From: Caecibacter massiliensis
GTDB lineage: Bacteria; Bacillota; Negativicutes; Veillonellales; Megasphaeraceae
DNA length: 64,000 nucleotides
Direction: 5' to 3'
NCBI GenBank assembly: GCA_900095875.1
Contig: LT608311.1
Location: 1 to 64,000 of the forward strand
Each line of letters begins with the position of its first letter. Within the stretch, counting starts at the first letter, position 1. Of this stretch, positions 28,386 through 47,135 are shown piece by piece. The position numbers and the translations under genes are program-made. Under the pieces are notes generated by a model. The model ran no database searches, had not been told where the DNA came from, and saw only the letters and a program-made list of their open reading frames with translations.

Positions 28386-28665
28386 AATAAAAAAATCTTC
28401 CGCCTCAGAAGAGACGGAAGATTTACTCGCGCGTTACCACTCTTATTCATATCCCAAAGGATATGCTCTTTACAGGTACGGACTCGTGTCGATACCCTCC
28501 TGTCTGTTAACGGCCAGGCCCCGGCCCCGCCTACTCTGCCCATGGCATTTCAGCTGGCTGCTTAGAGACGAGTTCACTTCCATTCCGCTGCTGCCTCGCA
28601 CCTGCCGGCAGCTCTCTGAAAGCTTTCTGGAACCTACTGTTTCCCTTCAACGCATTTTTATTTTG
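28386..28665 (-). ncRNA. T-box leader of the leucine operon (CUC specifier)
   Basis: A tRNA-sensing leader in front of leuA. On the minus strand the T-box core AGAGTGGTAACGCGCG (28428-28443) pairs with uncharged tRNA. It is followed by a terminator: AAATCTTCCG stem arms at 28394-28424 and a T-run at 28386-28395. In the 5' stem I region the sequence GTGAACTCGTC holds a likely specifier codon CTC (Leu) at 28570-28572, preceded by GAA as in many T-boxes. The leader should read uncharged leucine tRNA and allow leuACDB transcription when leucine is short. Exact stem boundaries were not folded. Confidence 0.92.
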
Positions 28666-28796: not shown

Positions 28797-29216
28797 TTAT
28801 GCTTTCATTCCCTTATCCCATTCCTGATACACACCTTCGTGGCGCTTTTTTTCGGCTCCCTTGGACAGATACGATCCGAGGACGACGGGAAATCCCTTTC
28901 GTTCGACAATAGACTTGATGTAATTGCGGAAGGGACAGGGCGGGCGGTGGTAATTGTCTGAACAGATGCACGATGCCAGATGAACGACCACGTCGCCTTT
29001 TTCTTCTCCATAGCGTTTCAGTTTGTGGTTCAGGTCTTCCAATTTTGCCGCAATGCCCGCCCCACAGCAGCCGCCACAGGTCAGCGTCATGTAGCGTGTC
29101 TGGTCGTCATACCCGGCAAACGGGCCCGTCCGGTCATAGAACGATTTCATGCAGCCGTATCCGGCACAGCGTTTGGAAACAATATCACATTGAATAATAA
29201 CTACTAAACGAGACAT
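28797..29216 (-). CDS. CGGC domain protein (putative metal-binding)
   Basis: A 139-residue member of the CGGC family (named for its motif), proposed to bind metal through conserved Cys and His. Visible Cys clusters are RCAGYGC near residue 17, LTCGGCCGAGIA near 46, HLASCICSDNYHRPPCPF near 79-96. The fold looks like an alternating alpha/beta domain (VVIIQCDIV at the start, GDVVVHLAS in the middle). Biological role is unknown; some members lie near redox or metal genes. GGGGGAG precedes the ATG. It stands alone, with a 13-base direct repeat in its leader that could be an operator. Confidence 0.85.
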   Translation of the reverse strand: MSRLVVIIQCDIVSKRCAGYGCMKSFYDRTGPFAGYDDQTRYMTLTCGGCCGAGIAAKLEDLNHKLKRYGEEKGDVVVHLASCICSDNYHRPPCPFRNYIKSIVERKGFPVVLGSYLSKGAEKKRHEGVYQEWDKGMKA

Positions 29217-29323: not shown

Positions 29324-30697
29324 CTAACCGGTCCGGGCCTTCGTAAAGCCGTTCTGCCGGCGCATAGTCTGCAGGATCCGCTCAAAATATACGATTTCCC
29401 ATTTCGCATACCGGTTACACAGCCGCCTGGTATGGCCGTTCTGCAGGACCTGTGCAATATCGCGGAGGACTCGTACTTTCTTTTCTGTCATGAACGAGTC
29501 GTACTGGCGGGATCGCATCACCTGCTTCAACTGGCTGGCCGCTTCTTCGTAACGCCCTTGTGTAATCGCCTGGCGGATGAGGATGAGCGTTTTAAGCCCC
29601 GGCGGGAAAGACAACTTGCGCAGATACGCAAGCCATGGCGGCACGCCAGGACGATGGCGGGACGAATGATGATAGAGGCGGAACAATGCTGCATACATAT
29701 GCATATAGCCGGAAACGGACAGGTGCAGCTGCCGGCGCCGGTAATCAATATCACAGGCATAGGTATAGTATCGTTCCGCCCGGCGCAGCGCATCTTCTGG
29801 CCAGGGACACAGCTGCTGTTCATAGGCGCATTCATACAACTGCCCCATCAGGTAAAACCAGTCACAGGCATAGGGAAATTCCGTTCTCGGCCGCCGGGCC
29901 AGTTCCTCGATGAGCGGGACATCCCCGTCTAAGCCGCAGTGCCGGCAAATGCGGTTAGCCATGCGCTGGAGCGTGTGGAATCGTCCCAGCTTTTCCACGC
30001 GGCGGGATTGGGGCAGCGTGATGCCGAACAAGAGGAACGCCTCCTGGCCCAGCCGGGAATGGGACTTAATCAAAGACAGGCTGGCACGGCAGAAATAATA
30101 TCCCGTCTTTAAGCGCATCTGCTTTCCTTCCCCGGTCAATTCATCATGAGCACTGTGATCCAGGATCCTTTTGTACAGTGCACAGGCCTTTTTCAGCTGC
30201 ATCTGCCGCCGTGTCCTGACAATGGGAAGATAGATATCGTCTGCTGATTTAAACAAAATCGTAGCATAATGATACATATCAGATACCGTATAGTCTGCCT
30301 GCATCAGTTTTTCATAGTACGAAATGGCCTGAATGACCAGGCTCAATTTGTCCGGCCGGTGACAGGCAAAGCCTTTCTTTCCCACCGGGCCATACAAGAT
30401 ATATTCCATATGAGCCTTAAACGCCCGGCAGCGCAGGACCATCACCGATGTACGACATCCTGCCAGCCGTTGTGCCGTATCCAGCGCATAGCCTGCCATA
30501 TACATATACCAGTCATAACAAGGCCCCTGAATAGCTGCCATGACGTAAATCTCTGCCAACTGGCACAACCGTTCCGGTGAGTCGAGCAATACTTCTGGGA
30601 TACTATTCCGCGCTTCCATCGCCGCCAGGGTCAATTCCCATGTTTTGTGTGACTTTGCCGTATCGAGTTGATGGATGATTTCTTTTTTCTCTTTCAC
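29324..30697 (-). CDS. Hypothetical alpha-helical repeat (TPR-like) protein, 457 aa
   Basis: I do not recognise a family. The 457-residue protein has no signal peptide or membrane helix and reads as a long series of amphipathic helices with TPR-like pairs, such as LCQLAEIYVMAAIQG, LSLVIQAISYYEKLMQ, LKKACALYKRIL, ALRRAERYYTYACDI and LILIRQAITQGRYEEAASQL. It is rich in Arg, Tyr and His. The start is GTG with GGGAGG eight bases upstream. Upstream is a striking array of 11-base-phased motifs, suggesting control by an OmpR/PhoB-type regulator. No neighbour hints at the job: leucine genes lie downstream past the CGGC gene, and ispG lies upstream behind a terminator. A scaffold or adaptor role is the most that structure suggests. 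Confidence 0.7.
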   Translation of the reverse strand: MKEKKEIIHQLDTAKSHKTWELTLAAMEARNSIPEVLLDSPERLCQLAEIYVMAAIQGPCYDWYMYMAGYALDTAQRLAGCRTSVMVLRCRAFKAHMEYILYGPVGKKGFACHRPDKLSLVIQAISYYEKLMQADYTVSDMYHYATILFKSADDIYLPIVRTRRQMQLKKACALYKRILDHSAHDELTGEGKQMRLKTGYYFCRASLSLIKSHSRLGQEAFLLFGITLPQSRRVEKLGRFHTLQRMANRICRHCGLDGDVPLIEELARRPRTEFPYACDWFYLMGQLYECAYEQQLCPWPEDALRRAERYYTYACDIDYRRRQLHLSVSGYMHMYAALFRLYHHSSRHRPGVPPWLAYLRKLSFPPGLKTLILIRQAITQGRYEEAASQLKQVMRSRQYDSFMTEKKVRVLRDIAQVLQNGHTRRLCNRYAKWEIVYFERILQTMRRQNGFTKARTG

Positions 30698-30740
30698 GTC
30701 TCAATCCTCCCTTGTATCAGGTCTGTCTGATTCATACCTA

Positions 30741-30825
30741 ATAGTATGAAGGGGAAAGATTAAAACAATATTAAAGCAGTCTTAAAATACAGTAAGAATT
30801 TGATTAAAAATATATTAAAAAAGGT
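30741..30825 (-). promoter_or_regulatory. Six-fold 11-bp-phased motif array in front of the TPR-like gene
   Basis: On the plus strand TTAAA-type motifs start at 30760, 30771, 30782, 30804 and 30815, exactly 11 bases apart, with a degenerate member (TAAGA) at 30793. A further TTACAT lies at 30825, one base out of phase. A -10 candidate TACTAT (minus strand, 30741-30746) sits 13 bases from the array, with no good -35. This is the layout of promoters activated by PhoB/OmpR-family dimers bound to direct repeats one helical turn apart. Confidence 0.6.
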
Positions 30826-30854: not shown

Positions 30855-30899
30855 CAAAAAAAGCACTGTCAATCAGCTATAATCTGTCTGTCAGTGCTT
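30855..30899 (-). terminator. Terminator of the rpsB-ispG operon
   Basis: AAGCACTG (30861-30868) pairs with CAGTGCTT (30892-30899), and partial pairing continues inside. On the minus strand seven T follow, right after the ispG stop. Confidence 0.8.
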
Positions 30900-47036: not shown

Positions 47037-47052
47037 ATCATATCCGGTAACA

Positions 47053-47120
47053 GCTTCCCTACGTCGGCATTACCCGAATCAGGTTAAAGGGTCATTCTCA
47101 GCCTTGCGGCTCCCCTAGCT
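47053..47120 (-). ncRNA. TPP riboswitch (THI element)
   Basis: On the minus strand the conserved THI words are present in order: GGGGAGCC near 47113, GGCTGAGAATGACCC (CTGAGA core), ACCTGATTCGGGTAATGCC, and CGTAGGGAAGC. It should bind thiamine pyrophosphate and favour the terminator at 47008-47036, turning off thiC. Confidence 0.97.
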
Positions 47121-47135
47121 TTTTATCCTTCGCTT

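Follow-up and report, generated by a model that had tools for sequence, protein, structure and literature searches.

The window analysed here, a stretch of 64,000 nucleotides of Caecibacter massiliensis DNA, carries on its (-) strand the gene of a 457-aa protein preceded by an array of short repeats. The gene and the elements upstream of it are:

29324..30697, (-) strand: gene of a 457-aa helical-repeat (TPR-like) protein, GTG start (open reading frame, orthologs, alignment, fold model)
30706..30713, (-) strand: ribosome-binding site AAGGGAGG, 8 nt ahead of the GTG (read from the sequence)
30743..30748, (-) strand: -10 element CATACT (same hexamer 10 nt past a unit in orthologs L007, L008 and L009)
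30759..30765, (-) strand: array unit 1, promoter-proximal, TTTTAAT (sequence)
30770..30776, (-) strand: array unit 2, CTTTAAT (sequence)
30781..30787, (-) strand: array unit 3, TTTTAAG (sequence)
30792..30798, (-) strand: array unit 4, degenerate, TTCTTAC (sequence)
30803..30809, (-) strand: array unit 5, TTTTAAT (sequence)
30814..30820, (-) strand: array unit 6, distal, TTTTAAT (sequence)
30861..30899, (-) strand: inverted repeat AAGCACTG...CAGTGCTT, then a T-run (read from the sequence; the loop exceeds a simple scan)

The inverted repeat is probably the terminator of the upstream ispG gene and parts ispG from the array promoter. With ispG closed by the inverted repeat and its T-run, the array would serve the 457-aa gene alone. 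A 139-aa protein whose Cys/Gly motifs look metal-binding is encoded between leuA and the TPR-like gene (28797-29216, (-) strand), a T-box leader (28407-28659, (-) strand) lies upstream of leuA-leuC-leuD-leuB, and a TPP riboswitch was seen at 47039-47126 on the (-) strand. A link to leucine or branched-chain amino acids, for which the neighbouring leu operon and an array at brnQ might speak, was dropped, as the leuA leader is a T-box and the set of arrayed genes is wider.

The preliminary description of this DNA had reported a six-fold motif array in exact 11-bp register, and the letters agree with it throughout: TTAAA starts at 30760, 30771, 30782, 30804 and 30815, the degenerate copy (TAAGA) at 30793, and every step is 11 bp. 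Written on the coding (-) strand, the array consists of six 7-bp units of the TTTTAAT type, each followed by N4, which together span 30759-30820. Five exact TTAAA across six slots were found in none of 5000 dinucleotide-preserving shuffles, either of the intergenic region or of its 78% AT core, so that AT bias, the trivial explanation named at the outset, was not upheld. The six-unit score was 38 at period 11, compared with 24-28 at the remaining periods within 7 to 15.

The promoter-proximal unit is separated from CATACT by 10 nt in the window. The same hexamer stands at this distance in ortholog L011 as well (read by eye), and L010 has GACAAT there. No -35 element was visible by eye at the array promoter, and a scan with the sigma-70 consensus found no promoter there, in accordance with the earlier reading of a -10 lacking a good -35. 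Direct repeats at 11 bp, a proximal repeat about 10 nt from the -10 and a missing -35 are the features of an OmpR/PhoB-type array.

The 457-aa reading frame is real: 10 of 16 other family genomes have orthologs, at 21-26% identity and with 19 invariant alignment columns. The ortholog loci belong to Megasphaera cerevisiae, M. paucivorans, M. micronuciformis, Colibacter, Anaeroglobus and Megasphaera MAGs. A search of genome contigs with the ortholog alignment gave matches in Megasphaera, Anaeroglobus and Colibacter only, and a contig scan with the single 457-aa sequence as query found nothing. No known family was found for the protein in Pfam, NCBIfam, PHROGs or PDB sequences. Its earlier designation as TPR-like stands at the level of fold and falls at the level of profiles: the AlphaFold2 model is an all-helical solenoid of predicted antiparallel helix pairs, as in TPR proteins (pLDDT 83, pTM 0.80), and no Pfam TPR model reached its curated cut-off. 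The model's weak structural matches are to designed TPR, LGN and Rap structures, none with E<=0.001. The protein thus shares the all-helical solenoid with TPR proteins including Rap; it differs from them in lacking a match at that threshold, a Pfam TPR and a visible Phr-type peptide gene.

Reading the window together with the ortholog upstream sequences yielded the refined unit TTYTMAT-N4. Since this unit was read from the tested sequences, the unbiased tests are those with the original, unrefined TTTAA motif and with reversed-pattern controls. With TTTAA, period 11 was best for the promoters of the TPR-gene orthologs, of comEA and of the regulator described below; the phase is therefore kept at the orthologs, where its loss would have spoken against a functional array. 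Individually, 6 of the 10 orthologs reached p<0.02 within 160 nt upstream (L003, L005, L008 and L011 fell short). The genome-wide results are pattern searches paired with reversed-pattern controls. In 17 family genomes (summed per-genome columns), a pattern of three units, one mismatch allowed, matched 45 times versus 3 for the control, and a pattern of two units without mismatch 119 times versus 25. Outside the family, the summed count was 8 matches versus 9 in the control, with no excess, which, at this stringency, confines the element to the Megasphaera family.

A search at 11-bp steps had been proposed as a check, and it showed that arrays recur before competence and type IV pilus, amino-acid transport and regulator genes. 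The recurrent arrayed genes are the pilB/pilT type IV pilus operon, comEA-comEC, yraN-comM, DUF4321-maf-radC, brnQ, the TPR-like gene and one OmpR-family regulator/kinase operon. Elsewhere in this genome, arrays were located as follows:

292 kb: yraN-comM
674 kb: OmpR-family regulator-kinase operon
1348 kb: pyruvate:ferredoxin oxidoreductase gene
1363.5 kb (G000:C2:1363473-1363512): OPT transporter gene, array on its 3' side
1967 kb: aminotransferase gene
2088.7 kb: pilB-pilT pilus operon, two arrays
2397.7 kb: brnQ
2436 kb: DUF4321-maf-radC

In the relatives the same arrayed genes recur, with comEA-comEC in addition; CstA-like genes are also arrayed. The main gene names were checked by NCBIfam and Pfam, and the rest, including this genome's radC, pilC and pilins, by eye only. 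The OPT array is strong, lies directly past the stop codon and faces a convergent gene in this genome, unlike a normal promoter; it is retained on the 3' side in M. cerevisiae and in G013 (L173, L199). Two small sigma-70-family genes also have an upstream array (L113:1709-2284 and L187:2569-3159, in G014 and G005). The arrays of comEA, pilB, brnQ and the regulator are oriented opposite to that at 30759-30820. Reversed arrays could mediate repression, and forward ones, such as that at 30759-30820, would mediate activation. In the published CiaR regulon of streptococci, opposite-strand sites accompany up- as well as down-regulation, so the sign at the reversed arrays here cannot be told from orientation.

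The shared element is present at the DNA-uptake genes pilB, comEA-comEC, yraN-comM and the radC operon, this genome's own comEA being without it. A triple of units upstream of comEA reached p<=0.009 in eight genomes, all in one orientation (G001, G003, G008, G011, G012, G013, G015 and G016); among 109 control upstreams, the background rate at p<=0.05 was 3.7%. No triple was found upstream of comEA in G002, G004, G005, G006, G009 or this genome. Arrayed comEA occurred in 8 of 9 genomes with the TPR-like gene versus 0 of 5 without it, a comparison that phylogeny confounds.

In seven comEA promoters, only in genomes with the TPR-like gene, the array is followed by GCAGGA. The motif GCAGGA(A/T)T stands about 12 nt (or 12+11) past the array, and an RGCGAA-like motif comes next (L204, L207, L213, L214, L215, L216 and L219). 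The pair is possibly an alternative-sigma promoter, GCAGGAAT-N12-RGCGAA at comEA of several relatives resembling the SigH consensus. In this it is like the SigH/ComX competence operons of Firmicutes (S. aureus SigH, PMC3486894), from which the comEA element here differs in having a response-regulator array ahead of it.

This genome encodes seven OmpR-family regulators, of which only the one at 674 kb has its gene preceded by an array. It contains both PF00072 and PF00486, its gene adjoins that of a histidine kinase (674-677 kb), and it scored below the cut-off of all NCBIfam equivalogs. This autoregulatory array is visible in most orthologs; none can be seen upstream of those in G013 and G014, two genomes that have arrays elsewhere. 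In L092-L103, a conserved AAGATAGGGGTGTTCGAGGGG... element and then a hairpin-like stretch lie upstream of the regulator gene; together they are possibly an RNA, with no match in Rfam.

The recognition helix of the 674-kb regulator, VVDVYIRYIRGKI, resembles VVEVYVSKVRKKL of CiaR. The CiaR box is TTTAAG-N5-TTTAAG, 10 nt from the -10, and its half-site demands the final G (PMC3091779). Common to the element here and CiaRH of streptococci are a near-identical half-site, the 11-bp phase, a 10-nt gap to the -10, the occurrence of sites in either orientation and a link to competence. In contrast, the unit here is TTYTMAT, with T rather than G as the final base in most units, there are up to six units per array instead of two, and the sites lie at the DNA-uptake genes themselves. 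The likeness falls short of established CiaR orthology.

Our preferred explanation, which we hold to be reasonably likely, is a competence-centred Megasphaera regulon, with the 457-aa protein among its members, under the control of a CiaR-like two-component system that also regulates its own operon. The array would be a tandem site for a CiaR-type response regulator of the OmpR/PhoB family, most likely the one encoded beside its histidine kinase at 674-677 kb. Dimers would occupy adjacent 11-bp repeats from one side of the helix, with the repeat closest to the -10 standing in for the -35 element. The preliminary description had pointed to such a replacement of -35 contacts, and both the phase kept at the orthologs and the array of an OmpR-family operon itself support it. 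The regulator would also bind the arrays of its own operon, pilB/pilT, yraN-comM, DUF4321-maf-radC and brnQ; with these loci bound, the regulon would centre on DNA uptake and natural transformation. In Veillonella parvula, a relative for which transformability has been demonstrated, transformation requires a pilB/pilT locus laid out in a similar way, which likewise begins with genes for two traffic ATPases, the second of them resembling PilT (PMC5397411).

The arrays at the pyruvate:ferredoxin oxidoreductase, aminotransferase and brnQ genes leave room for a broader regulon, responding to stress or nutrients, of which competence would be a single branch. Together with those at the OPT transporter and CstA-like genes, they lend some weight to a general regulon under an OmpR-family regulator, responding to envelope stress or to amino-acid or redox state, in which competence genes are only one component and the TPR-like protein is not involved in DNA uptake. 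We regard this as possible and clearly the less probable reading, because competence operons recur in several genomes beyond chance expectation for so few matches and arrayed comEA follows the presence of the TPR-like gene.

A phosphate regulon, with PhoB/PhoP binding the array, had been suggested in the preliminary description as the possible identity of a two-component regulon. The half-sites of the E. coli pho box likewise consist of 7 bp and a 4-bp spacer, repeat every 11 bp and stand about 10 nt from the -10, and the array here shares with it direct repeats in place of a -35. However, the half-site sequence differs, and no array was found in the pst-phoBR region (1796-1809 kb), the first place where phosphate control would be expected, or upstream of the PhoB-like gene; nor is there a phosphate-linked gene among the identified arrayed genes. 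The main support for the phosphate idea is thereby gone, and we rejected it as improbable; the OmpR/PhoB-family array is what stands of the suggestion. Possession of ppk1 and ppx, to which that description appealed, would make no difference here. Least credible of all is an array arising from AT-rich chance or phased DNA curvature with no dedicated protein: the region is 70-78% A+T, but shuffling does not reproduce the array, the unit is specific, conserved at orthologs and in excess of reversed-pattern controls, and TTAA steps differ from bent A-tracts.

The motif before competence genes and one regulator gene across the genus thus places the TPR-like protein probably in a previously undescribed DNA-uptake regulon and not in a phosphate regulon. 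Its role, as read from co-regulation, would be that of a cytosolic adaptor. More tentatively, and with doubt as to the whole, the protein may be a new, clade-specific component of natural competence in diderm Firmicutes, or a feedback regulator of it. It would then be a Rap-like adaptor whose target is either the two-component system or the pilus/ComE machinery, in lineages where the two-component system directly controls the DNA-uptake operons, joined in some relatives by a SigH-like sigma factor.

Our literature search found no paper describing a direct-repeat regulon under a two-component system in Megasphaera, nor one on competence regulation in Negativicutes; the papers found do not say how competence is switched on in this class (Veillonella, Megasphaera). 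A conserved element found both at DNA-uptake operons and at one two-component system provides a directly testable regulator. It also makes an uncharacterised protein family a candidate component of competence in anaerobes of the gut and rumen, which are difficult to work with genetically.
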